Shown: positions 20,061-61,956 of the stretch, one piece after another
How positions within the stretch are numbered: the stretch's first letter is position 1
Layout: the number at the start of each line of letters is the position of its first letter
Assembly: GCF_900091445.1 (NCBI RefSeq)
Contig: NZ_LT607733.1
Location: 2,496,501-2,560,500 of the forward strand
DNA length: 64,000 nt
Direction: 5' to 3'
Source of the DNA: Micromonospora echinofusca
GTDB taxonomy: Bacteria; Actinomycetota; Actinomycetes; Mycobacteriales; Micromonosporaceae
Program-made: the position numbers and the translations under genes
The notes under the pieces: model-generated
What the model was told of the DNA's origin: nothing
Database searches by the model: none
Seen by the model: only the letters and a program-made list of their open reading frames with translations

Positions 20061-21410
20061 TCAGTCCTCCTCGCCCCGGTAGCTGTAGAAGTCGTCGACG
20101 AAGCGGCGCGCCAGCCGGGGCACCCGACTGGTGACGCCGAAGTAGCCCCGCGCGCCGAGCAGCGCGAGCCGACCGACGACCGGCTTGTACATCCGGTCGT
20201 CGCCGTTGGTGCCGCTGCGGTTGAGCGAGTCGGCGACGCGGGCGAACCCGTACGGCACCATGGCGGCCTCGTAGTCCGCCACCGCCTGGAGCAGCGTCTT
20301 GTCGCCCGTCGCGGCCTGCCGCAGTTGCCGGCAGAGCAGGGCGGCGTCGCGCAGGGCCGTGTTGGCGCCCACCCCGCGTCCCGGCGTCATGGTGTGGATG
20401 GCGTCGCCGAGCAGGGTGACGGTGCTGCTCTTCCACGGCGGCACCGGCTCGCTGGTGGCCACCTTGATGGGCAGGGCGCTGTCCGGGTCGCCGCGGGCGA
20501 GCAGTTCGCGCAAATTGGGGTGCCAGTTGCGGGTGAGTCGCAGGGCGAGCAGGATCAGCTCCTCGCCGCGCCGCTCCATCACGTCGGCGGGGAAGCGGCG
20601 GGCCGTGCTCCACACGACCAGGTTGATGTTGTCGCGGGTGTTGTCGTGGCGCAGCCCCGGCCAGCCGCGCAGCAGCTCGGCGTCGGCGGGGTCCACACCG
20701 GGTTTGAGCGACCCGTCGCGGTCCCACTTGAACTCCATGACGTGCAGCACGCCCATCATCCCGCCGGTGCCGAAGATCAGCGAGATGCCCTGCTCGATGC
20801 GCTCCGGCAGCAGCCCCCGGGTGTGCGGGGTCAGCGGGATCCGGGTGGCGATGTTGATGGTGCCGGCGTCGCGGGTGACCGCGTGCGGCAGGTACTGGCG
20901 GCGTACCGCCGAGTGCGTGCCGTCCGCGGCGACGAGCAGGTCGCCGGTGGCGGTGCTGCCGTCGGCGAAGTGCGCGGTCACGGTGCCGTCGTCGCGTTGG
21001 TCGTACCGCGTGAAGGTCTTGTCGAAGTGGACGACGTCCTCCATGCCGGTGAGCAGGACCTGGCGCAGGGTCATCCGGGCCACGGACCGTTCGGTGTTCA
21101 CCGGGTCGGTGTCCGGCCGGAGCGTGAACGAGGCGGTGCGGCGCATCCCCTGGGTGATGACGTTGAAGTAGCGGGGGGAGCGGGCACAGGTGGCGAGGTA
21201 GACGTCGAAGAGGGCGGGCGGCAGGCACTCGCGTAGCGCGCGGCTTCCCGTCGGTCCGATGCCGACCCGGTAGCCGAGCAGCCCCTCGCCGCGCGTGCGG
21301 TAGCGCTCGTAGACGGCGACGCTGATCCCCGCCCGGCGCAGGCCGTGGGCCAGGCACAGTCCGCCGGTGCCGGCCCCGATGATGAGTACGTGGGGTGGTC
21401 TGGACGACAT
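20061..21410 (-). CDS. FAD-dependent aromatic polyketide hydroxylase (WhiE-ORFVIII-like)
   Basis: A 449-residue group A flavoprotein monooxygenase. It has an N-terminal dinucleotide fold (VLIIGAGTGGLCLAHGLRRA), DLLVAADGTHSAVRR (DG motif) and a second FAD motif (LLGDAIHTMTPGRGVGANTA). It probably hydroxylates the cyclised polyketide using NAD(P)H and O2. It is transcribed away from the PKS operon together with a TcmI-type cyclase 14 bp upstream, as whiE-ORFVIII is divergent from the rest of whiE. ATG start at 21410; the open frame reaches further but only over the cyclase gene. Confidence 0.88.
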   Translation of the reverse strand: MSSRPPHVLIIGAGTGGLCLAHGLRRAGISVAVYERYRTRGEGLLGYRVGIGPTGSRALRECLPPALFDVYLATCARSPRYFNVITQGMRRTASFTLRPDTDPVNTERSVARMTLRQVLLTGMEDVVHFDKTFTRYDQRDDGTVTAHFADGSTATGDLLVAADGTHSAVRRQYLPHAVTRDAGTINIATRIPLTPHTRGLLPERIEQGISLIFGTGGMMGVLHVMEFKWDRDGSLKPGVDPADAELLRGWPGLRHDNTRDNINLVVWSTARRFPADVMERRGEELILLALRLTRNWHPNLRELLARGDPDSALPIKVATSEPVPPWKSSTVTLLGDAIHTMTPGRGVGANTALRDAALLCRQLRQAATGDKTLLQAVADYEAAMVPYGFARVADSLNRSGTNGDDRMYKPVVGRLALLGARGYFGVTSRVPRLARRFVDDFYSYRGEED

Positions 21411-21424
21411 GGCGACCGCCCCGT

Positions 21425-21775
21425 TCAGCCGGCCGGGCGCGACGACGAGGTCGCGTCGGCGGCGTCCCACCGGTAGAAGCAGCCCGCGATCGCGTCGCGC
21501 GGCGAGCGCCAGGTCGGCAGGTACGGCGTGGTGTGCGCGGAGAGCCGCTCGTTGACCTGCCGGTAGAGCGGGTGGTTGCGGGCGTCGGCCAGGGCGTCCG
21601 GTGCCACGTCGGCGGTCTCCATCAGGTGTACGCACAGGTCGTGCAGGCAGTACAGGGACCGGTGGCGGACCCCGGTCAGGGCGGGTAGTTCGGTCGCGTC
21701 GGACTCGGCGAAGATCTGCGCCACCCGACCCTCCGCGCCCGGGATGATCCTGCTGACGATCAGAAGACGGCTCAT
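21425..21775 (-). CDS. TcmI-family polyketide cyclase (copy 1)
   Basis: 116 residues of the Cyclase_polyket (TcmI/WhiE-ORFVII) ferredoxin-like family: LLIVSRIIPGAEGRVAQIFA then ESDATELPALTGVRHRSLY. Members close a late ring of aromatic polyketides. It is closely similar along its length to the second copy at 23126 (both read AQIFAESDATELP/AEIFAESDATELP and end SPRDAIAGCFYRWDAA/EPRDAMARCFYRFDAA). The two copies flank the SARP gene and probably arose by duplication, so they may handle successive rings. ATG 21775, with a GAGAGGGG ribosome site. Confidence 0.9.
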   Translation of the reverse strand: MSRLLIVSRIIPGAEGRVAQIFAESDATELPALTGVRHRSLYCLHDLCVHLMETADVAPDALADARNHPLYRQVNERLSAHTTPYLPTWRSPRDAIAGCFYRWDAADATSSSRPAG

Positions 21776-21897
21776 GGGACCCCTCTCGCCGGTGGTGCTC
21801 CGCGACGATGGCGGAGCCCACGGACTGTTGTGCGCCCACCGTGCCCGGGGGACTGTCACCTGCCCGTCACACCGACCGTCGCGCCGGTGACGCCGCG

Positions 21898-25730: not shown

Positions 25731-28238
<2,508 letters not shown>

Positions 28239-28242
<4 letters not shown>

Positions 28243-31933: not shown

Positions 31934-33319
31934 GTGACGACGGGAAATCCTGCGGCGACAGACCCGCTCTGGGTTGACGAAATTCTGCTCCAAGGCCGTT
32001 CCACCGACATTTGTCTCCGACTACCCGAACCGGTCGACCGGGGCACCCTGCGCCGGCTGGTGACCGGGGCGCAGGCCCGTCTCGCCGCGGCCGGACTGCG
32101 TCCCGGCGGCGCCGCCGCGCTGCGGCTGCCGCCCTCGCTGGCGTACGTGGTGAACCTGCTGGCCACCTGGCGCAGCGGGGCGCAGGCGATCCTGCTCGAC
32201 CACCGGCTCACCGACCACGAGGTCGGCCGGGCGCTGGAGCGGCTCACCCCGCAGGTGGTGGTGGCCCCGGTCCGCACCGGCGGCGGCGGACTACGGATCT
32301 TCGTGGACGTCACCGAGGGCGTCACCGCGTACGCCGACCGCCCGGCGGTCAGCGGGCACGCCGTGATCCAGCTCAGCTCCGGCTCCACCGGACCGTCCAA
32401 GGTGATCGGCCGTACCGCCGAGGACCTGGTCGCCGAGGTGCACCGCTACACCCGCATCGACGGCGTGGCGCTGCCCGGCGAGCGGATCATCCTGCTGCCC
32501 TCGATGGTGCACGTGCTGGGCCTGGTCGGCGGCCTGCTCTACGGCCTGCACGCCGGCGTCGAGCTGGTGCCGCCGGAGCGCCTGGCCGGCGACGCCGTGC
32601 TGGCCGCGATCGCCGCCGACGACTCGCCGGCCACCGTGCTCGGCGTGCCGTTCCACATCGGACTGCTCGCCTCCACCCGGCCCACCGGGCCGCTGCCGCA
32701 GTTCAAGCGGATGACCACCGGCGGCGAGCTGGTCCCGGCCGCCGTCGCCGCCGCCTTCGCCGACCGCCACGGCGTGCCGCTGGGCAACATGTACGGGATG
32801 ACCGAGGTCGGCGTCATCGGCACCGACCTGCACGGCCGGCACCGCCCGTCCATCGCCCCCGCGCCCGGCATCGAGGTCCGGGAGGTCGACGGCGAGCTGC
32901 GGGTGAGCTGCCCCGCGTCGCCGTACGTCGGGCTGAGCGACCCCACCCGCTGGGCCGACGGCTGGCTGCACACCCGCGACGCCGGCACCGTCGATGCCGG
33001 CACGGGCCTGGTCACCGTCCGCGGGCGGCTCGACTCGCAGGTCTCCGTCGGCGGCCTGAAGGTCGACCTGACCGAGGTGGAGGCGACCGTCGCGGCGCTG
33101 CCCGGCGTCGCCGCCGCCGTCGTCGTCTTCGACGGCGCGATCACCGCCTACGTGCAGCCCGACGGGCCGCTGTCGCAGGAGGTCCTCGACGAGCTGCTCG
33201 CCGAGCGGCTGGCCGGCTACAAGCGACCCCGCACCCTGCGCCTGGTGGCTCAGTTGCCGCGCACCACCACCGGCAAGCTGGTCCGCTCGACCGACGCGCT
33301 GCGTACGGCGGCGACGTGA
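31934..33319 (+). CDS. AMP-forming acyl/aryl ligase (ANL superfamily)
   Basis: A 461-residue adenylate-forming enzyme. P-loop LSSGSTGPSKVIGRT, A5-like NMYGMTEVGVIGTDLHG, hinge GRLDSQVSVGGLKVD and the catalytic C-terminal lysine in TTTGKLVRS are all present. The A7 motif reads LHTRDAGTVD, i.e. Arg for the usual Gly of TGD. It is shorter than average because the N-terminal domain is compact. It likely activates a carboxylic acid for loading on one of the stand-alone carrier proteins downstream. GTG start 31934, first gene of region B. Its 3' end overlaps the antisense phosphopantetheinyl transferase gene by 70 bp. Confidence 0.85.
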   Translation: MTTGNPAATDPLWVDEILLQGRSTDICLRLPEPVDRGTLRRLVTGAQARLAAAGLRPGGAAALRLPPSLAYVVNLLATWRSGAQAILLDHRLTDHEVGRALERLTPQVVVAPVRTGGGGLRIFVDVTEGVTAYADRPAVSGHAVIQLSSGSTGPSKVIGRTAEDLVAEVHRYTRIDGVALPGERIILLPSMVHVLGLVGGLLYGLHAGVELVPPERLAGDAVLAAIAADDSPATVLGVPFHIGLLASTRPTGPLPQFKRMTTGGELVPAAVAAAFADRHGVPLGNMYGMTEVGVIGTDLHGRHRPSIAPAPGIEVREVDGELRVSCPASPYVGLSDPTRWADGWLHTRDAGTVDAGTGLVTVRGRLDSQVSVGGLKVDLTEVEATVAALPGVAAAVVVFDGAITAYVQPDGPLSQEVLDELLAERLAGYKRPRTLRLVAQLPRTTTGKLVRSTDALRTAAT

Positions 33320-33969
33320 CCACCGTGCCGCGCCGCCCCGACGTGCCCGTCCGCCTCGACCACGACCACCTCGACCGGCGCCGCGTCGACGGCGTCGACG
33401 GCGACCGCCAGGACCAGGCCCGCGCCCACGCCCGGATGCCCCACGCGCAGCCGCGCGAGACCGGGCACCGGCCGCAGCGACGCCTCCGCGTCGACGGGCA
33501 CCGGCATCCGCCGGCGCAGGCCACCGTCGCGCAGCCCCACCCCGAGCGCCTTGCCCACGGCCTCCTTCGCCGTCCACAGCCGCAGGAAGTCCGTCACCTG
33601 CCCGTCGGCGGGCCGCCCGACCAGCCAGGCCGCCTCGGCGGGGGCGTACCACCGGCGGGCCAGCGCCGCCGCCGGCAGCGGCCGGCACCGCTCCACGTCC
33701 ACGCCCACCGGGCCACCCGCCCGGGCGGCGACCACCACCACGGGCCCGGACCGGCTGACGCTGACCGGCAGCCGCGCCCCCGCGCCGCACACCGCGACCA
33801 GCGGACGCCCGTCGCGGCCGCGCTCCACCACGATCTCCGCCTCCGCGCGGCCGAGCAGCGCGGCACCCGCCCGCCGCAACAGCCGACCGGCCGGGGCCGG
33901 CCGACCGCCGACGCCCCGACCGATCCACACGTACGCGGTGTCCCGACCGGGCACCGGTAACTGGCTCAC
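33250..33969 (-). CDS. Sfp-type 4'-phosphopantetheinyl transferase
   Basis: 239 residues. Core motifs GPVGVDVERCRPLP and FLRLWTAKEAVGKALGVGLR carry the Mg-binding Asp/Glu and catalytic Lys. It converts apo carrier proteins to holo form using CoA. It is encoded antisense between two rightward genes of the region B operon, overlapping the ligase end by 70 bp and starting only 15 bp from the ACP start. If GTG 33969 is the true start, codon 4 is TTA (33958-33960), suggesting bldA-dependent translation. An in-frame GTG at 33954 would exclude it. Neither start has a clear ribosome site. Confidence 0.88.
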   Translation of the reverse strand: MSQLPVPGRDTAYVWIGRGVGGRPAPAGRLLRRAGAALLGRAEAEIVVERGRDGRPLVAVCGAGARLPVSVSRSGPVVVVAARAGGPVGVDVERCRPLPAAALARRWYAPAEAAWLVGRPADGQVTDFLRLWTAKEAVGKALGVGLRDGGLRRRMPVPVDAEASLRPVPGLARLRVGHPGVGAGLVLAVAVDAVDAAPVEVVVVEADGHVGAARHGGHVAAVRSASVERTSLPVVVRGN

Positions 33970-33984
33970 GGAAAGAGGTTAACC

Positions 33985-34251
33985 ATGCGACCCGAGATCC
34001 GCGCCTTCGTCGTCGAACAGCTCGAGGACATGAACTACGACGTCGAGGGCATCGACGACGACACCACGCTCGGCCCGTCCGGGGTGGACCTGGAGTCGCT
34101 GGCCCTCGCCGACCTCGCCGTACGCGTCGAGGACCGCTACGGCCTCAAGTTCGCCGACGACGAGTCCGAGAAGCTGGCCCTGATGACGGTCGGCGAGTTC
34201 ACCACGATGGTCGCCGACCGGGTCGCCGGGGCGCCGAGCGACAACTCCTGA
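33985..34251 (+). CDS. Stand-alone acyl carrier protein (carrier 1)
   Basis: 88 residues, all-helical ACP fold with the phosphopantetheine serine in GVDLESLALADLAVRVED (Ser38; DxES in place of the common DSL). The C-terminus ends at APSDNS. It is probably activated by the phosphopantetheinyl transferase whose gene starts 15 bp away on the other strand. ATG 33985, ribosome site GAAAGAGG. Its stop overlaps the next carrier gene by one base (TGATG). The substrate is likely an acid adenylated by a neighbouring ligase, or a 2-carbon unit from the E1 proteins. Confidence 0.88.
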   Translation: MRPEIRAFVVEQLEDMNYDVEGIDDDTTLGPSGVDLESLALADLAVRVEDRYGLKFADDESEKLALMTVGEFTTMVADRVAGAPSDNS

Positions 34252-34496
34252 TGGCCGGTCAGCCCGACCTGGGACGGGCCGACCTGGTGACCATGCTCGC
34301 CGACCTGTCCGGGAAACCGTCCGCCGAGGTCGGCGACCGGATCGGCTCCATGGAGCTGGCCTGGCTGGTGCACCTCGTCGAGCAGCGCCACGACCGGCGG
34401 CTCGACCTCACCGACGACCAGCTCGCCGCGATCCGCACCGTCGACGACGCCCTGGCGGTCTTCCGGACCGCCCTGACCGCCGCCGCCGATGGCTGA
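34251..34496 (+). CDS. Stand-alone acyl carrier protein-like protein (carrier 2)
   Basis: 81 residues, ACP-like four-helix pattern. The modification site reads RIGSMELAWLVHLVEQRHDR, with Ser33 preserved but Gly in place of the usual preceding Asp, which may change recognition by the transferase or ketosynthase. It begins on the last base of carrier 1 and overlaps the following ketosynthase-like gene by 8 bases. Two different carriers in tandem suggest that starter and extender (or aminoacyl and acyl) groups are held separately. Confidence 0.8.
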   Translation: MAGQPDLGRADLVTMLADLSGKPSAEVGDRIGSMELAWLVHLVEQRHDRRLDLTDDQLAAIRTVDDALAVFRTALTAAADG

Positions 34497-35571
34497 GCCG
34501 GCGGCCGTCCCGCTCACCGGCGTCCACGCGAGCAGCGCGTTCGGCAGGGGAACCGACGCGCAGCTCGCCAGCGTGCTCGCCGGCGACCCGGCGTTCCGGC
34601 CCGTGGACCGCTTCGACACCACGGCCCGCCGGGTCGACGCCGCCGCCACCCTGCCCGACGCCGGTGACCTCGCCGACGAACTCGCCGAGGCCGTGGACGC
34701 CGCCTGCCGGGCCGCCGGCCTCGACGCCGGCCGGCGGGGCGGCACCGCCCTGCTGCTGGCCGTACACGGCGGCGCGCACGTGCCGGCGCTCACCACCGCG
34801 CTGGCCGCCCGCAGCGGGCTCACCGGCCCGGCCCGGGCGTACACCACCGCCTGCGTCTCGGCCAGCAGCGCGGTCGCCGACGCCGCCGCCCTGATCCGGC
34901 GGGGCGACGTCGACCGCGCGGTGGTGGCCGCCGGCTACCTGGTCGAGCCCGACCAGTACGCGCTCTTCGACGCTGGTCGCGCCCTCGCCACCGACGGCGC
35001 GGTGCGCCCGTTCAGCGCCGGGCGCACCGGACTGCTGCTCGGCGACGGCGTCGCCGCGGTGGTGCTGGAGTCGCGGGCCGTCGCCCGGGACGCGGTCGCC
35101 GACCTGCTCGGCTGGGGCCGGGCCGGCGACGCGTTCCACCCCTGCCAGCCCGAGCCGGGCGGGCGCGGCCTGGCCCGCGCGGTCACCGCGGCGCTGCGCC
35201 GCGCCGGGCTGACGGCGGAGGCGATCGGGTACGTCAACGCCAACGCCACCGGCACCGGCCACAGCGACGCCGCCGAGGCCGCGGCCCTGCGCACCGCGCT
35301 CGGCGCGGCGGCCACACACGTCCCGGTCAGCTCCACCAAGGCGCTGCACGGGCACGCCCTGGAGGCCTCCGGCCTGCTGGAACTGGTGGTGACCGTGCTC
35401 GCCCTGCGGCACGGGAAACTGCCCGTCAACGCCGGCTGGCTGGGCCCCGACCCGGCCTGCCCGCTGGACGTGGTGCGCGACGCGCCCCGGCCCGCCACCA
35501 CCGGGTACGCGCTGAGCCTCAACGCCGCCTTCGGCGGCGCCAACACGGCGCTGCTGGTCGGTACGGCATGA
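34489..35571 (+). CDS. Ketosynthase-like protein with Cys-Asn-His triad
   Basis: 360 residues of thiolase fold, shorter than the usual 400-420. The nucleophile is kept (Cys122 in YTTACVSASSAVADAA) and the last histidine is kept (His289 in TKALHGHALEASG). The HGTGT-type motif is NATGT (VNANATGTGHSD), so the first catalytic histidine is Asn252. FabH-type enzymes are Cys-His-Asn; this order (Cys-Asn-His) is different. It may acyl-transfer without decarboxylative condensation, or partner a normal KS. Overlaps its neighbours by 8 and 4 bases. Confidence 0.87.
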   Translation: MAEPAAVPLTGVHASSAFGRGTDAQLASVLAGDPAFRPVDRFDTTARRVDAAATLPDAGDLADELAEAVDAACRAAGLDAGRRGGTALLLAVHGGAHVPALTTALAARSGLTGPARAYTTACVSASSAVADAAALIRRGDVDRAVVAAGYLVEPDQYALFDAGRALATDGAVRPFSAGRTGLLLGDGVAAVVLESRAVARDAVADLLGWGRAGDAFHPCQPEPGGRGLARAVTAALRRAGLTAEAIGYVNANATGTGHSDAAEAAALRTALGAAATHVPVSSTKALHGHALEASGLLELVVTVLALRHGKLPVNAGWLGPDPACPLDVVRDAPRPATTGYALSLNAAFGGANTALLVGTA

Positions 35572-46964: not shown

Positions 46965-47654
46965 TCAGCTCGGGCGGAGGCTCGCCAGGTGGGCGCCGAG
47001 GCGGCGGACCGTCTCGGCGGCGGCGACCGCGTCGCTGCGGGCGCTGCCGTGTCGGCCGTCGCCGCTGTACATCGACGCCTCGGCGACGAGCGGGTGGTCG
47101 GTGAGTCGCACGTGTAGGGTGCCGAGCCGCTCCGCGAGGTCCCCGGTGTGCGCGGAGAGCCGCCGCATCCGCTCGCCGAGGCCGGCCCGGTGCCGCTGCG
47201 GCACGGCCGGGCTGTGCGAGACGTCGAACAGGCCGACGGTGATCACGTCCGCGCCGGCGGCCCGCAGCGCCTCGACCATCGCGGCCAGTTCCGCGTCGAC
47301 GGCGTCGGCGTCGTAGGCGCGGCTGAAGGCGTCGTTGCCGCCGCAGACCACCAGCGCCAGGTCGGGGCGGAACGCCAGCGCCGGGGCGAGCTGGATGGCG
47401 CGCACCTCGTGCGCCCGCAGCCCCCGCAGGCCCAGGTTGAGGTACGCCAGCTCCGGCCGGCCGGCCCGCAGTTCGGCGGCGATCCGGTCGGCCCACTGCA
47501 CGTCGGGATAGCCGTCGACGGGCTCGCAGAGCCCTTCGGCCACGCTGTCGCCCAGCACCGCGAAACGTCGCCACGGGTGGCCGCGCAGCAGCGCCGCGCT
47601 CTCCCCGTCGCGTAGGCACCACGGATCCGTCGCTTCGGTCAACGTCGATGGCAT
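46965..47654 (-). CDS. SGNH/GDSL-family hydrolase
   Basis: 229 residues. Block I is FAVLGDSVAEGLCEPVDGYP (the GDS nucleophile), block III is LALVVCGGNDAFSRAYDAD, and the C-terminal part carries the catalytic His region around VRLTDHPLVAEAS. No signal peptide, so cytosolic. Likely an esterase/lipase-like enzyme. It lies opposite in direction to the surrounding genes and is unlinked to the operons. The substrate is unknown. Confidence 0.85.
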   Translation of the reverse strand: MPSTLTEATDPWCLRDGESAALLRGHPWRRFAVLGDSVAEGLCEPVDGYPDVQWADRIAAELRAGRPELAYLNLGLRGLRAHEVRAIQLAPALAFRPDLALVVCGGNDAFSRAYDADAVDAELAAMVEALRAAGADVITVGLFDVSHSPAVPQRHRAGLGERMRRLSAHTGDLAERLGTLHVRLTDHPLVAEASMYSGDGRHGSARSDAVAAAETVRRLGAHLASLRPS

Positions 47655-52855: not shown

Positions 52856-54091
52856 CTACGCCCGCCCTACGACATCCGGTGCCCGCGCGGCCGGCGCGGG
52901 AGCGGCCCGTGGACGTAGGCCGGGCAGCATCGGCAGCACTGTGACGACGAGGCAGAACGCCGCCATCACCAGCAGGGCGGGGACGAGGCCGAACGCGGTG
53001 ACCGACCAGCCGCCCAGCAGCGCGCCCAGCGGTAGGCCGGCGAACGCCAGCGACCCGGCCAACCCGATCACCCGCGTCTGCAACGCGGCCGGCACCCGCT
53101 CGTAGATCGCCACGCCCAGCAGCGGGTTCACCGCCGCGATGCCGATGCCGGAGGCGAACGTCACCGCCAGCACGACGGCCAGTTCCTCGCTCAGCGCCAG
53201 GACCAGCAGCCGCGGGGCGCCGCCCAGCGCCGCGCCGACCGCGAAGGTCAGGTACGCAGGCAGCCGGGGACCGTACGCCGTGAACAGCAGGTTGCCCAGC
53301 AACGCGCCCGCCGAGAACGCGGCGAGCACCAGGCCCAGCCCGGCGGGGCCGCGCAGCACGTCGGCCACCCAGAGCGGGATGTAGACCGCGACGCTCGCGT
53401 TGACCACCATGTTCAGCGCCGCGATCACCAGCAGCATGGTCAGCAGCGTCCGGTCGCGGCCCAGGTGGCGGAACCCGCCCGCGAGAGCGCGCAGGTAGCC
53501 CTCCGGTGCGGCCGGTCCCGCCGGTGCGGCCGGCGGCCGGACCAGCAGCCCGACGAGCAGGGCGCACACGGCGAAGCTGGCGGCGTCGATGAGGAGTGCC
53601 CCCGTCACCCCGAACCACCAGACGAGCAGCCCGCCCAGCCCCGCGCCGAGCAGGGTGACCAGCCGGCCCAGCCCGTCGTAGACGGAGGTCAGCCGGAGCA
53701 GTCGTACGCCGGCGGCCTCGGCGGCCGGGCGGAACATCACGTGCTTGACCCGGTCGCCGACACCCCGCAGGGCACCCACCACCGCGACCAGGACGAGCAG
53801 CGCGTCGAAGCCGAGCCACGGGGTGAGGGCCACCGCCACCATCAGAGCGGCGCTGCCGGCGTCGGCCAGGATGGACGTGCGGCGCAGCCCGACCCGGTCC
53901 GCCCACGGCGTGCCCAGCGCGCTGGAGAGCAGGTAGGGCAGCGTCTCGGCGGCGGCCACCGCGCCCATCTTCGCGGGGCTGCCGGTGGTCTCCAGCACCA
54001 GCCAGGGGATGGCCACCACCGAGATCCGGCTGCCCAGGTTGGAGATCAGGTCGGCGGCGACCAGGACGGTCAGTTCCCGCCGGGGGGTCAC
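52856..54091 (-). CDS. Major facilitator superfamily exporter
   Basis: 411 residues with about 12 membrane helices: VLVAADLISNLGSRISVVAI, a short cytosolic loop DRVGLRRTSILADAG (MFS motif A) and later GGLLVWWFGVTGALLIDAAS. It resembles drug/enterobactin-type exporters. It is coupled to the upstream ligase gene by a 4-base overlap (its GTG at 54091 overlaps the ligase stop). It is a candidate efflux pump for the product of the biosynthetic region, though no resistance link can be shown from sequence. Confidence 0.85.
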   Translation of the reverse strand: MTPRRELTVLVAADLISNLGSRISVVAIPWLVLETTGSPAKMGAVAAAETLPYLLSSALGTPWADRVGLRRTSILADAGSAALMVAVALTPWLGFDALLVLVAVVGALRGVGDRVKHVMFRPAAEAAGVRLLRLTSVYDGLGRLVTLLGAGLGGLLVWWFGVTGALLIDAASFAVCALLVGLLVRPPAAPAGPAAPEGYLRALAGGFRHLGRDRTLLTMLLVIAALNMVVNASVAVYIPLWVADVLRGPAGLGLVLAAFSAGALLGNLLFTAYGPRLPAYLTFAVGAALGGAPRLLVLALSEELAVVLAVTFASGIGIAAVNPLLGVAIYERVPAALQTRVIGLAGSLAFAGLPLGALLGGWSVTAFGLVPALLVMAAFCLVVTVLPMLPGLRPRAAPAPAARAPDVVGRA

Positions 54092-55683
54092 GCCAGGCTG
54101 CCGATCGACGCCTCAGGGTGCTCGATCGAGGACGGGTGCTCCTCGGCGTGGCGGGCCCGCAGCGCGCGCTTGTCCACCTTCGCGGAGCGGTTGAGCGGCA
54201 GCCGGTCGACGAACTGGACCCCGCCCGGCGCCCAGGTGTCGCTGAGCTCGGCGGTCACCAGGTCGATCAGCTCCCGGGCGGTCACCGTCGCGCCGGGCGC
54301 CGGCACCACGAAGGCGTACGGCAGCTCGCCGGCCGCCTCGTCCGGCACGCCGATCACCGCCGCCGCCCGCACCTGCGGGTGCCCGGCCAGGACGTCCTCG
54401 ATCGGGCGGGAGTGGATCGGCCAGCTGCGCCGCCGGGTGAGGATCCGGTCCTGCAACCGGTCGACCAGGTAGAGGTAGCCGTCGGCGTCGAGGTGCCCGA
54501 CGTCGCGGGTGCGGACCCAGCCGTCGACCAGCGTCTCGGCGGTCAGCTCGGGCTGGCCGTGGTAGCCGGCGAAGCGCAGGTCGGTGTGCACCCACACCTC
54601 GCCGTCGGCGCCGGGCGGCAGCACCGTGCCGTCGTCGGCGCGGATCTCGACGCGTACGTCACCGTAGGGCCGCCCGCAGGAGCGCAGCCGCTGCGGGTGC
54701 GCCGGGTCGTCGGTCAGCCCCGGCAGGGCGGTGACCACGACGGCCTCGCTGAGGCCGTACACGATGCGCAGCACCGGCCCGAAGCGGGCGATCGCCTGAC
54801 GCAGCCGGGCGGGCGCGGCGGGCCCGGCGCCCACGTTGAACATGAACATGGCGGAGAAGTCCGCGCCGTCCAGGGCCGGGTGGTCGAGCACCTCGTAGAG
54901 CATCGGCGGGGTGACGAAGGTGGAGTTGATCCGCTCCCGGTCGACGGTCGCGATGAACCCCGCCGCGTCCCAGCCGTCGCGCGGGAACAGCACCCCGCCG
55001 GTGAAGAGGTTGAACAGCGTGGTGATCTGGCCGCTGGCCAGCCACATCGGCGAGTGCGACAGGTGCCGCAGCGGCGGATGGCCGGCGGCGCGGAAGTCGA
55101 CGGCCAGGGCGAGGATCTGGGTGTAGAAGCTCTCCCGGTGGTGCACCAGCTTCGGGGTGCCGGTGGTGCCGCTGGTCTGGAGGAAGGACTCCGGCGCCGG
55201 CGCCTCGGCCGGCAGGTCGACCGCCGGGGCGCCGGCGGCCGCGGCGACGAGGTCCGGACCCGCGCCGCCCGGCCCGAGACAGAGCACGGGTACGCCGGGC
55301 AGCCCGGCCGCCAGCTCCGGCCCGAGGCCGGCGGCGTCCCGGGCGTCGTAGACGAACGCGTCGGGACGGGCCAGCCGGACGAACTCGTCGACCTCCCGGC
55401 GGGACGTGACCGGGGCGATCCACATCGTCCGGCAGCCCAGCAGGTGCAGGGCGAGCTGCACCAGCGGCCCCTCCACGGGGTTGCCGAGCGCGAGCAGCAC
55501 CGCCTGCCCCGGCCGTACGCCGTGCCCGAGCAACGCCGCGGCCAGCCCGCGCACCTGCGCGGCGACCTCGGCGTAGCTGAGCCGGTGTCCGTTTCCGACC
55601 AGCGCCTCCCGGTCGCCGAAGCCCGCGAACAGCTCCAGCGCCCGGTGCACGTAGCCGGCCCGTCGCTCCGGTCGGTCGGTCAT
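54088..55683 (-). CDS. AMP-forming acyl-CoA synthetase/ligase (third in region)
   Basis: 531 residues, ANL superfamily: FLQTSGTTGTPKLVHHRES (P-loop), LRIVYGLSEAVVV (A5), VRTRDVGHLDADGYLYLVDR (A7, TRD instead of TGD) and the C-terminal SAKVDKRAL lysine. Not NRPS-like: there is no carrier domain. It probably activates a carboxylic acid as adenylate and CoA thioester, as the third such enzyme in the window. ATG start at 55683. It shares a promoter region (55684-55953) with the divergent SGNH lipase gene and an operon with the MFS exporter. Confidence 0.85.
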   Translation of the reverse strand: MTDRPERRAGYVHRALELFAGFGDREALVGNGHRLSYAEVAAQVRGLAAALLGHGVRPGQAVLLALGNPVEGPLVQLALHLLGCRTMWIAPVTSRREVDEFVRLARPDAFVYDARDAAGLGPELAAGLPGVPVLCLGPGGAGPDLVAAAAGAPAVDLPAEAPAPESFLQTSGTTGTPKLVHHRESFYTQILALAVDFRAAGHPPLRHLSHSPMWLASGQITTLFNLFTGGVLFPRDGWDAAGFIATVDRERINSTFVTPPMLYEVLDHPALDGADFSAMFMFNVGAGPAAPARLRQAIARFGPVLRIVYGLSEAVVVTALPGLTDDPAHPQRLRSCGRPYGDVRVEIRADDGTVLPPGADGEVWVHTDLRFAGYHGQPELTAETLVDGWVRTRDVGHLDADGYLYLVDRLQDRILTRRRSWPIHSRPIEDVLAGHPQVRAAAVIGVPDEAAGELPYAFVVPAPGATVTARELIDLVTAELSDTWAPGGVQFVDRLPLNRSAKVDKRALRARHAEEHPSSIEHPEASIGSLA

Positions 55684-55953: not shown

Positions 55954-57255
55954 ATGTCGACCCCGAAGAGATGGCATGTCATCGCGTCCGCCGCCACCCT
56001 GCTCGTCGCCGGCACCCCGGCGATGGTGGCCAGCGCCGGCCCGGCCGACACCGAGGCGTCCCGCCAGCGCACGGTCTGGGCGGGCAGTTGGGCCGCCGCG
56101 GTCACCAGGGGAAACGCGACCGGCCTGACCAACAACGGCCTCAACGACCAGAGCGTACGGATGGTCGTGCACACCACCGTCGGCGGAGAGCGGTTCCGGG
56201 TCCGGCTGAGCAACTCCTACGGCGAGCAGGCCGTCCGGGTCGGCCGCGCCACCGTCGCGAAGCCGAACACCGCGACCCCCGACGACCTGTCCGACATCGA
56301 CCCCTCGACCCTGCGGACGCTGACCTTCGGCGGCGCCACCTCGGCCACCATGAACCGGGGCGCCGAACTGGTCAGCGACCCCGTCGCGCTGCCCGTCGGC
56401 GACCAGCAGGACCTGGTCCTGACGGTGCACTTCCCGACCCCCACCGGCCCGGTGACCTTCCACGGCCAGTCCCGGCAGACCAACTTCATCGGTGCCACCG
56501 ACCTGACCTCCGCCGCTGGCGGGGCCGGGTTCACGATCCGACCGAACTGCTGCTGGTTCTTCCTGTCCGGCATCGACGTGCAGCGGCGGCACAGCCCCGG
56601 CTCGGTGGTGGTCTTCGGCGACTCCATCGCCGACGGCAACGGCAGCACAGTCAACGCCAACAAGCGCTGGCCCGACCTGCTCGCCGACCGGCTCATCGAC
56701 GCCCGCCCGGACGTCCGTACCCCGGGCGTGCTCAACCTCAGCCTCGCCGGCAACCGGCTCAACCACGAGGGCACCGAGCCCGGGGCGGGCGGCTTCCCCG
56801 GCTACCACGAGCTCGGACCGAACGCCCTGGCCCGGCTCGACGAGGACGTCTTCGCGCAGACCGACGCGCGGACCGTGATCACCCACCTAGGCATCAACGA
56901 CGTCTGGATGTCGGGCGACTCCGCCGAGCAGATCATCGCCTCGCTGCGGCAGGTCAACCAGCAGGTGAAGGCGCGCGGCCTGCGCAGCCTCGTGTCGACG
57001 CTGACCCCGTACGAGGGGCACGGCAACCCGGGGGTGTGGACGCCCGAGAAGGAGGCCACCCGGCAGGCGGTGAACGCGTACCTGCGCGGCAGCGGCGAGT
57101 TCGACGGGCTGCTCGACTTCGACCGGGTGCTGCGCGATCCGGCGCAGCCGAGCCGGCTGCTGCCCGCGTACGACTCGGGGGACCACATCCACCCGAACGA
57201 CGCCGGCAACCAGGCGCTGGCGGACGCCGTACCGCTGCGACTGCTCGGCCTGTGA
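55954..57255 (+). CDS. Secreted SGNH/GDSL-type hydrolase
   Basis: 433 residues. Signal peptide (HVIASAATLLVAGTPAMVAS, about residues 8-28) and mature N-terminal beta domain (about 35-210) are followed by an SGNH esterase domain: SVVVFGDSIADGNGSTVNAN (Ser), ITHLGINDVWMSGDSAEQ (Asn block) and DSGDHIHPNDAGNQALADA (Asp/His). Such enzymes act on extracellular esters or glycans. It is a single transcription unit with its own promoter and a strong terminator at 57260. It sits between the ligase/MFS pair and the P450 operon; no functional tie to them is evident. Confidence 0.87.
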   Translation: MSTPKRWHVIASAATLLVAGTPAMVASAGPADTEASRQRTVWAGSWAAAVTRGNATGLTNNGLNDQSVRMVVHTTVGGERFRVRLSNSYGEQAVRVGRATVAKPNTATPDDLSDIDPSTLRTLTFGGATSATMNRGAELVSDPVALPVGDQQDLVLTVHFPTPTGPVTFHGQSRQTNFIGATDLTSAAGGAGFTIRPNCCWFFLSGIDVQRRHSPGSVVVFGDSIADGNGSTVNANKRWPDLLADRLIDARPDVRTPGVLNLSLAGNRLNHEGTEPGAGGFPGYHELGPNALARLDEDVFAQTDARTVITHLGINDVWMSGDSAEQIIASLRQVNQQVKARGLRSLVSTLTPYEGHGNPGVWTPEKEATRQAVNAYLRGSGEFDGLLDFDRVLRDPAQPSRLLPAYDSGDHIHPNDAGNQALADAVPLRLLGL

Positions 57256-57259
57256 CACC

Positions 57260-57323: not shown

Positions 57324-58544
57324 GTGGACGTCACCCAGCTGTTGACCCGCCTCTACAGCGACGAGGGCCGGCAGGACCCGTACCCCTGCTACGCCGCCCT
57401 GCACGCGCTGGGGCCGGTGAACCCGGTGCCGGCGCGCGCGGAGCACCGCACGGTCGCCGCCGTCGCCGTCGGCTACGACCTGGTCAGCCAGGTGCTGCGC
57501 GACCCGCGGTGGTACAAGCAGGCCCCGCCGGACTGGCAGGAGCAGGAGGTGCTGCGCACCCTCCAGACCTCGATGATGTTCGTCAACCCGCCGCAGCACA
57601 CGCGGATGCGGGCGGCCTTCGCGAGGAGCTTCACCCCGCGCCGGCTCGCCGCGCTGGAGCCGGTCGTGCACCGGGTCGTCGACGGGCTGCTCGACCGGAT
57701 GGCCGACGCCGGCGACGCCGACCTCGACTTCGTGGCGGAGTTCGCGTACCCGCTGCCGGCCCTGGTGATGGCGGAGTTCATCGGCATCCCCGCCGGGGAG
57801 CTGGACTTCTACCGGCAGCGGGTGGAACGGATCGACGAGTTCCTGGACGTGGCCGGCGCGACCCCGCAGCGGCTCACCGCCGCCAACACCGCCGCCGCCG
57901 AGCTGCGCGACTTCTACGCCGAGCTGATCGCCCACCGGCGCCACCGGCCCGGCGACGACCTGATCAGCGCCCTGGTCGAGGCGGTCGACGCAGGCGACGT
58001 GGAGCTGACCGTCGACGAGCTGGTGAGCAACCTGATCGTGCTGTTCAACGCCGCCTTCGTCACCACCGTCTACATGTTCTCCAACGGGCTGCCGCTGCTG
58101 CTGGCCCACCCCGACGTGGCCGCCGCGCTGCCCGGCGACGACGCGTTGACCCGGGGTGCGGTCGAGGAGATCCTGCGGCTGGAGGCGCCCGTGCACTTCC
58201 TGGCCCGGGCCGCGCCCCGCGACAGCGAGGTCGGCGGGGTGCCGGTCGGGCGGGACCGCAACGTCCTGCTGATCCTCGCCGCCGCCAACCGCGACCCGGC
58301 CCGCTTTCCCGACCCGGACCGTTTCGACCCGCGCCGGAGCGGACCGCCGTCGCTGGCCTTCGGCGCCGGCCCGCACTTCTGCCTCGGCGCGGCGGTGTCC
58401 CGGCTGGAGGGTCGCCTCGCGCTGCCCAGGCTGCTGGCCCGCTTCCCCGGGCTCACCGTCGCCGAGGCGCCGACGTACAGCGGCAGCCTCTTCCTGCGCG
58501 GCGTCGACAGGCTGGCCGTACACACCCGAGGAGGACCCGCGTGA
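57324..58544 (+). CDS. Cytochrome P450 monooxygenase
   Basis: 406 residues, bacterial class I-type P450. The heme-binding loop is FGAGPHFCLGAAVSRLE, EILR provides the ExxR motif, and the I-helix reads LIVLFNAAFVTTVYMFSNG, with Asn-Ala-Ala-Phe replacing the usual AGxxT oxygen-activation residues except the Thr. GTG start 57324 (GGAGG ribosome site). It heads a four-gene operon with an esterase, a hydroxymandelate oxidase and an aminotransferase, all linked by short overlaps. It likely hydroxylates or crosslinks an aromatic intermediate; the missing acid-alcohol Gly is a possible functional variation. Confidence 0.9.
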   Translation: MDVTQLLTRLYSDEGRQDPYPCYAALHALGPVNPVPARAEHRTVAAVAVGYDLVSQVLRDPRWYKQAPPDWQEQEVLRTLQTSMMFVNPPQHTRMRAAFARSFTPRRLAALEPVVHRVVDGLLDRMADAGDADLDFVAEFAYPLPALVMAEFIGIPAGELDFYRQRVERIDEFLDVAGATPQRLTAANTAAAELRDFYAELIAHRRHRPGDDLISALVEAVDAGDVELTVDELVSNLIVLFNAAFVTTVYMFSNGLPLLLAHPDVAAALPGDDALTRGAVEEILRLEAPVHFLARAAPRDSEVGGVPVGRDRNVLLILAAANRDPARFPDPDRFDPRRSGPPSLAFGAGPHFCLGAAVSRLEGRLALPRLLARFPGLTVAEAPTYSGSLFLRGVDRLAVHTRGGPA

Positions 58545-59500
58545 GCATCCATCCGCAGGTGGCGGCGTACCGGGCCGCCCGCGAGGCGGCCGGCACCCCG
58601 CCGCTGTACTCCCAGAGCCTGGCCGAGGCCCGCGCCGCCGACCTCGCCGCGATCCGCGCCAGCGGCGGCGCGGTCGAGCCGGTGCACGAGGTACGCGACA
58701 CGCACGTGCCCGGCCCGGCCGGCGACCTGCCGGTGCGCGTCCACCGGCCGGCGGGGGAGGGGCCGCTGCCCACCCTGGTCTACTTCTTCGGCGGCGGGTG
58801 GACCCTCGGTAGCGTGGACACCGCCGACGGCATCTGCCGACGGCTGGCCAACGCCGTGCCCTGCCAGGTGGTCACCGTCGGCTACCGACTGGCCCCGGAG
58901 CATCCCTTTCCCTCCGCCGTGCACGACTGCCACGCGGCCACCCGGTGGATCGCCGACAACCCTGCGGAGTTCGGCGTCGACCCGCTGCGCGTGGCGGTCG
59001 GCGGGGACAGCGCCGGCGGCAACCTCGCCGCCGCCGTCACCCTGCTGGCCCGCGAGCGCGGCGGGCCACGGTTCGCCGCCCAGCTGCTGGTGTACCCGAA
59101 CACCGACCAGAGCGCCGACCCCAGGGGCGACGCCGAGGACCCGCTGCTGTTCAACCGCCGCTCGGTGGCCTGGTACCGGGGTCACTACCTCGCCGACCCC
59201 GCCGACGCGCGGCACCCGCTGGCGTCACCGCTGCTCGCCGCCGACCTGGCCGGCCTGCCGCCGGCGCTGGTGATCACCGCCGAGCACGACCCGCTGCGCG
59301 ACGAGGGGGAGCGGTACGCGCACCGGCTGCGCGGGGCCGGCGTGCCGACCACCCTCACCCGGTACGCCGGCATGATCCACGGCTTCTTCGCCATGCCGGG
59401 GGCGTTCGACGACGGCCGGCACGCCCAGGACCAGGCCGCGGCGTTCCTGCGCGACCGGTTCGCCGCGGCGGGCGGTGCCGGTGGGGAGGGAGACCGGTGA
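58541..59500 (+). CDS. HSL-type alpha/beta hydrolase
   Basis: 319 residues. The oxyanion-hole motif reads YFFGGGWTLGSVDTADG (usual HGGG with His replaced by Phe), the nucleophile elbow is GGDSAGGNLAAAVTLL, and the later catalytic acid/His lie around AEHDPLRDEGERYAH and MIHGFFAMPG. A hormone-sensitive-lipase/esterase family member. GTG 58541 overlaps the P450 stop by 4 bases; the next ATG overlaps its stop by one base (TGATG). It may release a carrier- or CoA-bound intermediate (compare PglD in phenylglycine synthesis), but the family is broad. Confidence 0.85.
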   Translation: MSIHPQVAAYRAAREAAGTPPLYSQSLAEARAADLAAIRASGGAVEPVHEVRDTHVPGPAGDLPVRVHRPAGEGPLPTLVYFFGGGWTLGSVDTADGICRRLANAVPCQVVTVGYRLAPEHPFPSAVHDCHAATRWIADNPAEFGVDPLRVAVGGDSAGGNLAAAVTLLARERGGPRFAAQLLVYPNTDQSADPRGDAEDPLLFNRRSVAWYRGHYLADPADARHPLASPLLAADLAGLPPALVITAEHDPLRDEGERYAHRLRGAGVPTTLTRYAGMIHGFFAMPGAFDDGRHAQDQAAAFLRDRFAAAGGAGGEGDR

Positions 59501-60624
59501 TGGTCGAGGGCGTGTCGTCGGGGTCGGACCTGCCGGCGGCGGAGCCGTCGCCGGCCAGCCTGGCCGACTTCGCGGGAGCGGCCCGGGCGGTGCTGCCGCC
59601 CGACGTGTGGGACTACGTCGACGGCGGCAGTGGTGCCGAGACCACGCTCGCCGCCAACCGCCGCGCGCTGGACCGGGTGGCCGTGCTGCCCCGGGTGCTG
59701 CGCGGCGTGCACACACCCCGCACCGAGGCGCGGCTGCTCGGCACGTCGTACGCCCTGCCGGTGGCGGTGGCGCCGATGGCGTACCAGCGCCTGGTGCACC
59801 CAGACGGGGAGCTGGGGCTGGCCGCGGCCGCGGGCGCGGCCGGCGTGCCGTACGTGGCCAGCACCCTGAGCAGCGTGCCGATCGAGCAGATCGCCGGGAC
59901 TGGCGCGAGCGTCTGGTTCCAGCTGTACTGGCTGCGCGACCGGGCTCTGGTCGCCGACCTGCTGGACCGGGCGCACGCGGCGGGCTGCACGGCGCTGACG
60001 GTCACCGTGGACGTGCCGATCCTCGGCCCACGGCGGCGCGACGTGCGCAACGCGTTCGCCATCCCGCCGCACGTCGTGGCGGCCAACCTGCCCGCCGGCC
60101 GCGACGACCTCGCGCACACCGCCGCCCCGGGCGTCTCCGCCATCGCCGCGCACACCGGCGAGGTCTTCGCACCCGCGCTGACGTGGGCCGACCTGGACTG
60201 GCTGCGCGGCCGTACCGCCCTGCCACTGGTCGTCAAGGGCGTGCTGGACCCGCGCGACGCGGAGCTGGCGGTGGCCGCCGGCGCGGACGCCGTGGTGGTC
60301 TCCAACCACGGTGGCCGCCAGCTCGACGGCGCACCGGCCACCGCGACCGTGCTGCCGGAGGTGGTGGCGGCGGTGGCCGACCGGTGCGAGGTGCTGCTGG
60401 ACAGCGGCGTACGCGACGGCTTCGACGTGCTGCGCGCGCTGGCCCTCGGCGCGCGGGGGGTGCTGGTCGGCCGGCCCATGCTGTGGGCGCTCGCCGCCGG
60501 CGGCGAGGCCGGGGCGCGCACGGCGCTTGAGCTGCTGGCCGGCGAGTTCCGCGACGCCCTGGCGCTGGCCGGCTGCGCCGACCCCGAGGCGGCCCGCGAG
60601 CTGCGCGTGATCAGGGAGGGCTGA
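59500..60624 (+). CDS. hmo: 4-hydroxymandelate oxidase (FMN-dependent, Hmo-like)
   Basis: 374 residues, FMN alpha-hydroxy-acid oxidase family: LPPDVWDYVDGGSGAETTLA, PVAVAPMAYQRLVHPDGELG, LTVTVDVPILGPRRRDVRNA and the active-site VVVSNHGGRQLDGAPATATV (His/Arg). These oxidise 2-hydroxy acids to 2-oxo acids with O2. With HmaS 19 kb upstream and the aminotransferase next, it is best explained as the Hmo step converting 4-hydroxymandelate to 4-hydroxyphenylglyoxylate. Lactate or glycolate oxidase would be the alternatives on sequence alone. ATG 59500; the HpgT GTG at 60628 follows by 3 bases. Confidence 0.88.
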   Translation: MVEGVSSGSDLPAAEPSPASLADFAGAARAVLPPDVWDYVDGGSGAETTLAANRRALDRVAVLPRVLRGVHTPRTEARLLGTSYALPVAVAPMAYQRLVHPDGELGLAAAAGAAGVPYVASTLSSVPIEQIAGTGASVWFQLYWLRDRALVADLLDRAHAAGCTALTVTVDVPILGPRRRDVRNAFAIPPHVVAANLPAGRDDLAHTAAPGVSAIAAHTGEVFAPALTWADLDWLRGRTALPLVVKGVLDPRDAELAVAAGADAVVVSNHGGRQLDGAPATATVLPEVVAAVADRCEVLLDSGVRDGFDVLRALALGARGVLVGRPMLWALAAGGEAGARTALELLAGEFRDALALAGCADPEAARELRVIREG

Positions 60625-60627
60625 CCG

Positions 60628-61956
60628 GTGACGGAGACGGTGGACCTGCGCGTGGCCGACCTGCACCCGGCGGTCGACGACCCGGCGCTGAACTCCATGA
60701 ACTTCCTCAACGAGGTGGCCCAGCACTACCCCGACGCGGTGTCGCTGGCGGCCGGCCGGCCGTACGAGGAGTTCCTCGACGTCGCGGCGCTGCACCGGCA
60801 CCTGGACAGGTTCCGCCGGCACCTGGCCGACGACCTCGGGCAGAGCCCCGCGCAGGTGCACCGCACGCTGTTGCAGTACGGCCGCACCAAGGGCATCGTG
60901 CACCACCTCGTCGCCCGCAACCTCGCCGTCGACGAGGACGTCACGGTCGACCCGGAGGCGATCGTGGTGACCGTCGGCTGCCAGGAGGCGATGTTCCTGG
61001 TACTGCGGGCGCTGCGGGCCGACCCGCGCGACGTGCTGCTCGCCGTCGCACCGACGTACGTGGGGCTGACCGGCGCCGCCCGGCTGCTGGACCTGCCGGT
61101 GCGGCCGGTACGGGGCGGTCCCGCCGGCATCGACCTGGCCGACCTGCGCGAGCAGGTACGCGTGGCCCGGGCGGCGGGGCTGCGCCCGCGCGCCTGCTAC
61201 GTGATGCCGGACTTCGCCAACCCGTCCGGCACCAGCATCGGCCTGACCGACCGGCGGCGGCTGCTCGACCTGGCCGCCGAGGAGGACCTGCTGCTGCTGG
61301 AGGACAACCCGTACGGCCTCTTCCCCGCCCCGCACGCCGGGCGGCTGCCCACCCTCAAGGCGCTGGACTCCGCGCGACGGGTCGTCTACCTGGGCTCCTT
61401 CGCCAAGACGGTGCTGCCGGGCGCCCGCGTGGGCTACGTGGTCGCCGACCAGCGCGTCGCCGGCGCGGACGGCACGGTGAGTCTCCTCGCCGACCAGCTT
61501 GCCAAGATCAAGAGTATGGTCACGGTGAACACGTCGGCGATCGCCCAGGCGGTGGTCGGCGGGGCGCTGCTGGAGCACGGGTGCAGCCTGGTGGCGGCCA
61601 CCGTCCGGGAGCGGGCGGCGTACGGTCGAAACCTGCGCCACCTGCTCGACGGCCTGGCCCGGCGCTTCCCGGCGGGGACCTCGCCGGTGCGGTGGAACGT
61701 CCCGGCCGGCGGCTTCTTCGTCGTGCTCACCGTGCCGTTCGGCGTCGACGACGCCCTGCTGCACCGGTCCGCCCGCGAGTACGGGGTGCTCTGGACGCCG
61801 ATGGCGCACTTCTACGCCGCCGGTGCCCCCGTCGACGCGCTGCGGCTGTCGGTCAGCGCCGTCACCCCGGACGAGATCGACCTCGGGCTGGACCGGCTGG
61901 CCGCGCTGGTCGCCGACGAGACGGCCCGCCGGGCGGCGACCGCCGAGGTGGGATGA
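60628..61956 (+). CDS. hpgT: HpgT-like PLP-dependent aminotransferase
   Basis: 442 residues, fold-type I aminotransferase of the MocR/HpgT group: VSLAAGRPYEEFLDVAAL, LQYGRTKGIVHHLVA, VTVGCQEAMFLVLRAL, YVMPDFANPSGTSI and the PLP lysine in YLGSFAKTVLPGARVGYVVA. Its position after Hmo supports transamination of 4-hydroxyphenylglyoxylate to L-4-hydroxyphenylglycine. In known Hpg pathways (vancomycin, calcium-dependent antibiotic) tyrosine is the amino donor, and its product 4-hydroxyphenylpyruvate feeds HmaS, closing a cycle. GTG start. It ends the P450 operon. Confidence 0.87.
   Translation: MTETVDLRVADLHPAVDDPALNSMNFLNEVAQHYPDAVSLAAGRPYEEFLDVAALHRHLDRFRRHLADDLGQSPAQVHRTLLQYGRTKGIVHHLVARNLAVDEDVTVDPEAIVVTVGCQEAMFLVLRALRADPRDVLLAVAPTYVGLTGAARLLDLPVRPVRGGPAGIDLADLREQVRVARAAGLRPRACYVMPDFANPSGTSIGLTDRRRLLDLAAEEDLLLLEDNPYGLFPAPHAGRLPTLKALDSARRVVYLGSFAKTVLPGARVGYVVADQRVAGADGTVSLLADQLAKIKSMVTVNTSAIAQAVVGGALLEHGCSLVAATVRERAAYGRNLRHLLDGLARRFPAGTSPVRWNVPAGGFFVVLTVPFGVDDALLHRSAREYGVLWTPMAHFYAAGAPVDALRLSVSAVTPDEIDLGLDRLAALVADETARRAATAEVG

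Follow-up and report, generated by a model that had tools for sequence, protein, structure and literature searches.

The DNA analysed here, called the window below, is a stretch of 64,000 nucleotides from Micromonospora echinofusca (GCF_900091445.1, contig NZ_LT607733.1, positions 2,496,501 to 2,560,500). It carries three neighbouring gene groups. Region A (20061-31249) is a predicted WhiE-type pigment locus. Region B consists of carrier-protein assembly genes and of the genes from a 4-hydroxymandelate synthase (HmaS) through an ATP-grasp gene. Region C contains the genes of a P450, a hydrolase, a 4-hydroxymandelate oxidase (Hmo) and an aminotransferase (HpgT). Comparison of sequences across genomes indicates that B and C are one biosynthetic unit, and that A is a separate locus which neighbours them in Micromonosporaceae. 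We consider it probable that this one cluster, B and C, makes a small aryl ketide derived from 4-hydroxyphenylglycine (Hpg) on free-standing carriers, with A as a separate pigment-type neighbour. The gene set is real and widespread, and it represents a known kind of system, the discrete assembly resembling a type II polyketide synthase (PKS), in a new form.

The unity of B and C is seen in their joint occurrence. In a sample of 91 genomes of the genus, B-type HmaS (at least 71% identity) and C-type HpgT (at least 78%) occur together in 50 and are both missing from 40; a single genome, G053, has HpgT alone, with an internal stop, and in G083 the C-type HpgT is split in two pieces over two contigs. 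For a wider view, genome contigs were searched with an alignment of KSF, the AmcF-like ketosynthase (KS) of B, and the best 80 of 124 loci were kept. Flanks of 10 kb are near-complete in 69 of the 80, referred to as full-flank loci, with 33 from Micromonosporaceae (Micromonospora, Salinispora) and 36 from other families. Named loci (L) and genomes (G) overlap, L088 and G104 for example being the same contig as judged by length, and the rows are not independent. A whole-genome search (E ≤ 1e-60, any position) found an HpgT-type gene in 47 of 49 KSF-locus genomes at 47-86% identity, with one partial match; the exceptions are L144 and L149, and some of the 47 genes may belong to other Hpg loci. 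G143, from another family, holds all gene types of B and C except DUF3050 inside about 22 kb, the P450 only as a 34% fragment match, and no A was found across the 47 kb read there. Shortened versions of the set are carried by G149 and G104. The same gene order repeats in dozens of loci, so the grouping is not a product of chance. The recurrent set comprises lig1, ACP1, ACP2, KSF, CYF, lig2, KS3, HmaS, PhyH, E1 alpha and beta, the hydrolase, Hmo and HpgT, and is often extended by DUF3050 and the ATP-grasp protein; A is absent from it outside Micromonosporaceae. It is found in Micromonospora, Salinispora, Kribbella, Kitasatospora, Streptomyces and Actinokineospora. Pieces of the cluster are also present in six of eight examined genus genomes that lack B-type HmaS (G040, G047, G041, G053, G032 and G044), for example Hmo, the hydrolase, an E1 beta fragment or a short HpgT fragment, and none were found in the other two, G066 and G061. 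By sequence, these remnants point to an old cluster that was lost repeatedly.

Region A carries genes for a divergent FAD hydroxylase, a cyclase, acetyl-CoA carboxylase (ACC), a fusion of acyl carrier protein (ACP) and cyclase, a cupin, the ketosynthase alpha (KSa), the chain length factor (CLF) and an ABM protein, as assigned by Pfam. With KSa, CLF, ACP, cyclases and hydroxylase in one place the WhiE-type gene set is complete, and we take A to be akin to the WhiE-type spore pigment locus. It shares with that locus the divergent FAD hydroxylase, cyclases, ACP, KSa, CLF, cupin and ABM protein; in contrast, A includes ACC genes of its own and a fused ACP-cyclase, and it stands outside the unit of B and C. 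A preliminary description had proposed that an Hpg or hydroxybenzoyl unit may be joined to the WhiE-like polyketide, which would make A, B and C one pathway with an Hpg-derived unit attached to the pigment polyketide. The positions in Micromonosporaceae are in favour of this, as A is found no more than 10 kb from KSF in each of the 33 full-flank loci and the KSa of A (at least 86% identity) accompanies B-type HmaS in all 50 genus genomes that have it. However, this KSa is present in 87 of the 91 genus genomes and thus also in 37 of the 41 without B-type HmaS. Beyond Micromonosporaceae, none of the 36 full-flank loci has A inside 10 kb, and 34 of them have HmaS. Since A is found in genomes lacking B-type HmaS, and B-type loci in turn are found with no A nearby, A is independent of B and C and a single unit of all three is rejected. 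The adjacency of A and B is explained by vertical inheritance of one locus, and we give a joint pathway very little credence. Of the co-conservation expected for the three regions, the part that concerns B and C holds, while A goes its own way.

Open reading frames (ORFs) of the window were picked via codon usage; 40 of those in 20061-62284 were compared with Pfam and 20 with NCBIfam, and selected proteins were compared with the sequences of the PDB. Residue conservation was read from alignments of 90-95 rows, of which the KS3 alignment has 92 rows, a few being other KSs. A gene-by-gene recount covers 14 relatives that carry B. The predicted genes of the cluster are the following.

31934..33319, plus strand: lig1, adenylate-forming enzyme (PF00501 and PF13193; start codon uncertain; 69/69 full-flank loci; also in L144 and L149)
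33250..33969, minus strand: phosphopantetheinyl transferase (PPTase), 239 aa (PF01648 with 56.6 bits, cut-off 25; 37/69 full-flank loci)
33985..34251, plus strand: ACP1 (PF00550; Ser38 kept in at least 97% of 93 rows)
34251..34496, plus strand: ACP2 with a GSMEL serine motif (no Pfam match; Ser33 kept in at least 97% of 90 rows)
34489..35571, plus strand: KSF, AmcF-like ketosynthase (PF02801/PF00109; Cys122, His289; Asn252 replaces the His of HGTGT)
35568..36101, plus strand: CYF, AmcG-like truncated KS partner, 177 aa (PF13723 with 25.7 bits, cut-off 25; 69/69 full-flank loci)
36098..37714, plus strand: lig2, homologue of ATP-dependent diazotases of the AvaA6, Tri17/CreM family (NCBIfam AvaA6, PDB Tri17; 66/69 full-flank loci)
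37711..38949, plus strand: KS3, FabF-like ketosynthase (Cys161, His301, His336; 66/69 full-flank loci)
39017..40117, plus strand: HmaS, 4-hydroxymandelate synthase (best PDB match 2r5v, tree and signature; 67/69 full-flank loci)
40114..41043, plus strand: PhyH-type Fe/2-oxoglutarate dioxygenase (PF05721; H140 and D142 of HxD and several later His conserved; 67/69 full-flank loci)
41045..41842, plus strand: DUF3050 haem-oxygenase-like protein of the MgoB family (PF11251 with 319.6 bits; PDB 9vwb; 50/69 full-flank loci)
41839..42810, plus strand: E1 alpha, thiamine diphosphate enzyme (PF00676; GDG...NN, presumably the thiamine diphosphate motif; 60/69 full-flank loci)
42811..43782, plus strand: E1 beta (PF02779 and PF02780; 60/69 full-flank loci)
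43783..45141, plus strand: ATP-grasp-type ligase, 452 aa (no Pfam match; glutathione-synthetase fold by model; 42/69 full-flank loci)
46965..47558, minus strand: GDSL hydrolase (PF13472; 11/14 B-positive relatives)
52856..54091, minus strand: exporter of the major facilitator superfamily (MFS) (PF07690; 12/14 B-positive relatives)
54088..55683, minus strand: lig3, third adenylate-forming enzyme (PF00501 and PF13193; 12/14 B-positive relatives)
55954..57255, plus strand: GDSL2 hydrolase (PF13472; 12/14 B-positive relatives)
57324..58544, plus strand: cytochrome P450 (PF00067; 11/14 B-positive relatives)
58541..59500, plus strand: alpha/beta hydrolase of LipP1/HSL type (PF07859; NF058653 with 378.7 bits, cut-off 350; 14/14 B-positive relatives)
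59497..60624, plus strand: Hmo, 4-hydroxymandelate oxidase (PF01070; top five PDB matches)
60628..61956, plus strand: HpgT-like aminotransferase (PF00155; HpgT-type gene in 47/49 genomes)

From ACP1 through the ATP-grasp gene, neighbouring genes overlap or almost abut, save for a 67-base gap ahead of HmaS, and the four genes of C overlap or lie 3 bases apart. The genes named for A, B and C in the preliminary description are present by Pfam, NCBIfam and PDB comparison. Its gene list needs two changes: the PPTase is encoded on the minus strand, the plus-strand ORF 33551-33982 being rejected as its shadow, and lig3, the MFS exporter and both GDSL proteins occur with the cluster as well (11-12 of the 14 relatives). 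The ATP-grasp ligase proposed there has no Pfam match, yet its predicted structure agrees with the assignment. The AlphaFold2 model (mean pLDDT 88.4) gives the 452-aa protein the ATP-grasp fold of glutathione synthetases; Foldseek matches it to glutathione and glutathionylspermidine synthetases, best to 8fbz with an E value of 2.7e-16, a TMq of 0.64 and an rmsd of 6.8. As had been stated, no nonribosomal peptide synthetase (NRPS; condensation domain), ketoreductase (KR) or dehydratase (DH) family is matched by Pfam among the 40 ORFs, nor was an E2 or E3 component found among the window ORFs scanned.

The steps from HmaS over Hmo and HpgT to Hpg are established enzymology, and Hpg is a building block of NRPSs for glycopeptides and similar compounds. 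The window HmaS has its best PDB match in 2r5v (named PCZA361.1), which we take to be an HmaS. In a 29-row tree it falls into the HmaS clade, with a 100/100 split from eight 4-hydroxyphenylpyruvate dioxygenases (HPPDs), one of them the HPPD-type copy from the source genome itself. The C-terminal signature is NI in HmaS and NF in HPPD, with Ile (Val in one row) at the position where HPPDs have Phe. Tree and C-terminal residues rule out that an HPPD was mistaken for HmaS. The cluster HmaS proteins lie outside the clade formed by six other HmaS in the tree, and one row, G037, has a long branch and an unsure position. Hmo is a predicted 4-hydroxymandelate oxidase, as its five best PDB matches are all enzymes of this type, with up to 380 bits. 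For HpgT, no NCBIfam model was above cut-off among the 25 families listed out of 43; a homologue with 68% identity is found next to HmaS and Hmo at another Hpg locus. Predicted enzymes of all three types known from the Hpg supply of glycopeptide and related clusters, HpgT being the candidate aminotransferase, are present in the cluster, as had been claimed, without a modular synthetase. In contrast to glycopeptide-type clusters, no NRPS is found among the ORFs scanned, and the cluster HmaS is outside the clade of the other HmaS. A separate HmaS-Hmo-HpgT trio of G002 was noted at L198:2753-6329, where by eye a small ACP gene and genes of FAD enzymes lie near and a large PKS-like ORF lies upstream.

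In the assembly module, KSF is aligned over its entire length with the NCBIfam model AmcF, and CYF has AmcG as its sole NCBIfam family match. At least 97% of the 95 KSF rows have Cys122, and His289 is kept. The His of the HGTGT motif is replaced by Asn in 93 of the 95 rows. It is retained in two, L144 (Streptomyces abikoensis) and L149 (Streptomyces sp. TBY4), and these are the loci that lack HmaS and whose genomes are the two without an HpgT-type gene. At L149:3583-19034 the KSF-CYF module stands with a p-aminobenzoate (PABA)-type synthase, an aminotransferase-IV gene, AurF and, by eye, an extra ACP. At L144:3610-14129 it stands with a PabB/TrpE-type (chorismate-binding) gene, AurF, a dehydratase and a short-chain dehydrogenase/reductase (SDR). 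With chorismate-binding and AurF genes in place of the Hpg genes, the module of loader, ACP, KS and CYF may serve varied aryl acids. Its closest described counterpart in our comparison is the cispentacin/coronafacic acid system, which likewise has a KS and a truncated KS-like partner, together with a discrete ACP and an adenylate-forming enzyme for loading (PMC10698177). The cluster described here differs in its extra normal KS, the Hpg genes, E1 alpha and beta and PhyH, in model scores below cut-off, and in Asn at the position of the HGTGT His, a residue that we read in KSF only. That paper reports more than 150 species whose biosynthetic gene clusters (BGCs) contain amcG, and its supplementary data hold over 100 diverse BGCs, among which the present family may be listed.

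Judging from knowledge of the enzyme families, HmaS would convert 4-hydroxyphenylpyruvate to 4-hydroxymandelate, Hmo would oxidise this to 4-hydroxyphenylglyoxylate, and HpgT would aminate the keto acid to Hpg. The mechanism past Hpg formation is inferred and less sure. lig1 would load Hpg or the keto acid onto ACP1, and KSF-CYF together with KS3 would lengthen the starter, probably with a single malonyl unit, so that an aryl beta-ketoacyl-ACP results. The keto group would be retained there because KR and DH are missing. PhyH, joined by DUF3050 and the P450 where present, could then oxidise the intermediate, and E1 alpha and beta could add or remove a carbon unit by thiamine chemistry. The alpha/beta hydrolase may free the product and the ATP-grasp protein may make an amide. 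lig2 may activate a second acid or, like its characterised relatives, set a second nitrogen on an amine.

This last possibility leads to a different view of the cluster, in which lig2 is an ATP-dependent diazotase or N-nitrosating enzyme that places an N-N group (diazo or pyrazole-type) on an Hpg-derived amine. lig2 reaches 486.9 bits with NCBIfam AvaA6, where the next family reaches 140.2, and it is present in 66 of the 69 full-flank loci. Among PDB sequences it scores 323 bits with Tri17 (8TF7/9BQ0, so named in PMC11705231) and less than 100 with FadD8 and with feruloyl-CoA and 4-chlorobenzoate ligases. By these scores lig2 is nearer in sequence to diazotases than to acyl-CoA ligases, with the exception of 9xb8, which is named FadD and reaches 271 bits. 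The label '3-aminoavenalumate diazotase' is given to 3 of 120 close lig2 homologues among the matches listed. However, the AvaA6 score is only half of the cut-off of 975. A tblastn search with five genomic lyases, which did not extend to CreE, gave no CreD-like Lyase_1 gene at any of the 80 loci, and the six Lyase_1 genes of the source genome have no CreE-like neighbour by eye in 4-kb loci. In favour of the diazotase view, a preprint (PMC12154649) states that where KinJ homologues occur, most clusters and most genomes have no CreDE genes; nitrite can therefore come from elsewhere. No KinJ-type enzyme was detected in the window or the 80 loci, nor in the source genome at E 1e-20. lig2 is by score nearest to the diazotases of the avenalumic acid, coumaric acid and triacsin clusters (AvaA6, CmaA6, Tri17); unlike in those clusters, no KR, DH or CreD-like gene was found beside it.

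The DUF3050 protein was weighed on the same question. It belongs to the MgoB family (PMC3298696), and DUF3050 genes occur within lomaiviticin-like hydrazino cassettes of four genomes (L075, L192, L193 and L194), that of L075 (cassette at 7275-15197) being about 70% identical to the window's; all four loci had been retrieved with DUF3050 as the query. As an indicator of diazo chemistry it looked strong at first and weak after none of six loci found by KinJ contained it (13.6-20 kb read; one of the six only 31-33% alike), and it is absent from 19 of the 69 full-flank clusters as well as from G022 and G076. The related ham cluster encodes HamA, a haem-oxygenase-like diiron oxidase (HDO) protein, for which PMC11705231 puts forward the hypothesis of an aid to N-N formation, whereas PMC11659414 describes it as non-essential for hydroxylamine intermediates. 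A DUF3050 haem-oxygenase-like protein is the feature in common with the ham/mgo/pvf diazeniumdiolate clusters; these have an NRPS and an AurF-type N-oxygenase, where the present cluster has discrete ACPs and Hpg genes. We regard diazotase activity of lig2 as possible but unlikely. Quite doubtful is the broader notion of a widespread, as yet undescribed carrier-protein class that would combine Hpg use outside NRPSs, a KS without its decarboxylation His and a CreM-type second nitrogen to give a diazo- or pyrazole-type aryl ketide.

The identity of the starter allows a further reading, in which E1 alpha and beta oxidatively decarboxylate 4-hydroxyphenylglyoxylate to a 4-hydroxybenzoyl starter, with Hpg serving as amine donor or belonging to a side branch. 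The presence of E1 alpha and beta in 60 of the 69 full-flank loci agrees with this, as does the KS module beside PABA-type genes (L149) or PabB/TrpE-type and AurF genes (L144), where the acid would be of C6-C1 type. Yet seven Actinokineospora loci have no E1 inside 10 kb and keep the Hpg genes (in G104 E1 lies about 4 kb past the flank), no E1 was found in the stretch of G149 that was read, and the HpgT-type gene is retained almost throughout the KSF-locus genomes. We find a 4-hydroxybenzoyl starter unlikely on this balance.

Several observations weigh against our preferred reading of B and C as a producer of an Hpg-derived aryl ketide. The acid loaded may be the keto acid instead of Hpg. The models AmcF (152.5 bits, cut-off 325, and below the 211.3 bits of the fabF model) and AmcG (29.8 bits, cut-off 80) are matched below their cut-offs only, and so we use the labels AmcF-like and AmcG-like. 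Loss of the HGTGT His is a mark of non-elongating KS domains in trans-AT PKSs. Without this first catalytic His, an elongating role of KSF appears doubtful; KSF-CYF may pass on acyl groups instead, and KS3 may condense. Against KS3 as the condensing enzyme, no KS3 was found in the full-flank Hpg-type loci L106 and L114, nor in the stretches of L115 and G149 that were read, and that of G149 lacks lig2 and E1 as well. C does not always adjoin B: the distance is about 41 kb in G038 and about 0.93 Mb in G068. Inside the 10-kb flanks Hmo is found in 20 and HpgT in 19 of the 69 loci, none of these from Micromonosporaceae, because C lies beyond 10 kb there. In G002 the assembly genes, Hmo, the hydrolase and the P450 remain, but the HmaS and HpgT of the cluster are gone, as is most of PhyH. 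A second HmaS-Hmo-HpgT set lies 1.2 Mb from the cluster there, and both decay and substitution are possible.

Some neighbouring genes were left out of the parts list. The segment 45146-52204 between B and C contains an aminoglycoside phosphotransferase (APH)-like gene, a fragment similar to flavin-containing monooxygenases (FMO) and a 1019-aa ORF without Pfam match. The APH-like gene (45146-46204) is rejected as a member since none of the 14 relatives has it, and a 58% match exists in the B-negative G053; the FMO fragment is matched in none of the B-positive relatives compared. The three are therefore probably local insertions. YjbR (52451-52846) occurs in 3 of 14 relatives. The gene x53 (62024-62284) is excluded because it is also found near A in the B-negative G040, G047, G041, G061 and G066. 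This 86-aa gene sits close to the outer end of the locus, both in B-positive genomes and in several B-negative ones, and marks the flank of the variable segment. Elsewhere in the source genome, G000:C1:3652125-3823318 is a giant type I PKS region of about 170 kb, with dozens of ketoacyl-synthase domains and frames of up to 9958 aa.

In agreement with the preliminary description, which knew of no characterised cluster of this combination, we found no description of it in the literature searched, supplementary files not being covered. A set of about 15 genes that is common to several soil and marine actinobacterial genera is apparently unstudied. Because Hpg genes are combined in it with free-standing ACPs and a pair resembling KS-CYF, the set suggests that culturable strains hold a family of compounds still unexplored. 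The KS-CYF idea is carried past cispentacin and coronafacic acid and linked to aryl acids, Hpg in this cluster and PABA-type acids in two loci. The set also presents a diazotase-like enzyme, lig2, without local nitrite genes. The Salinispora and Micromonospora carriers make the product accessible to genetic test.

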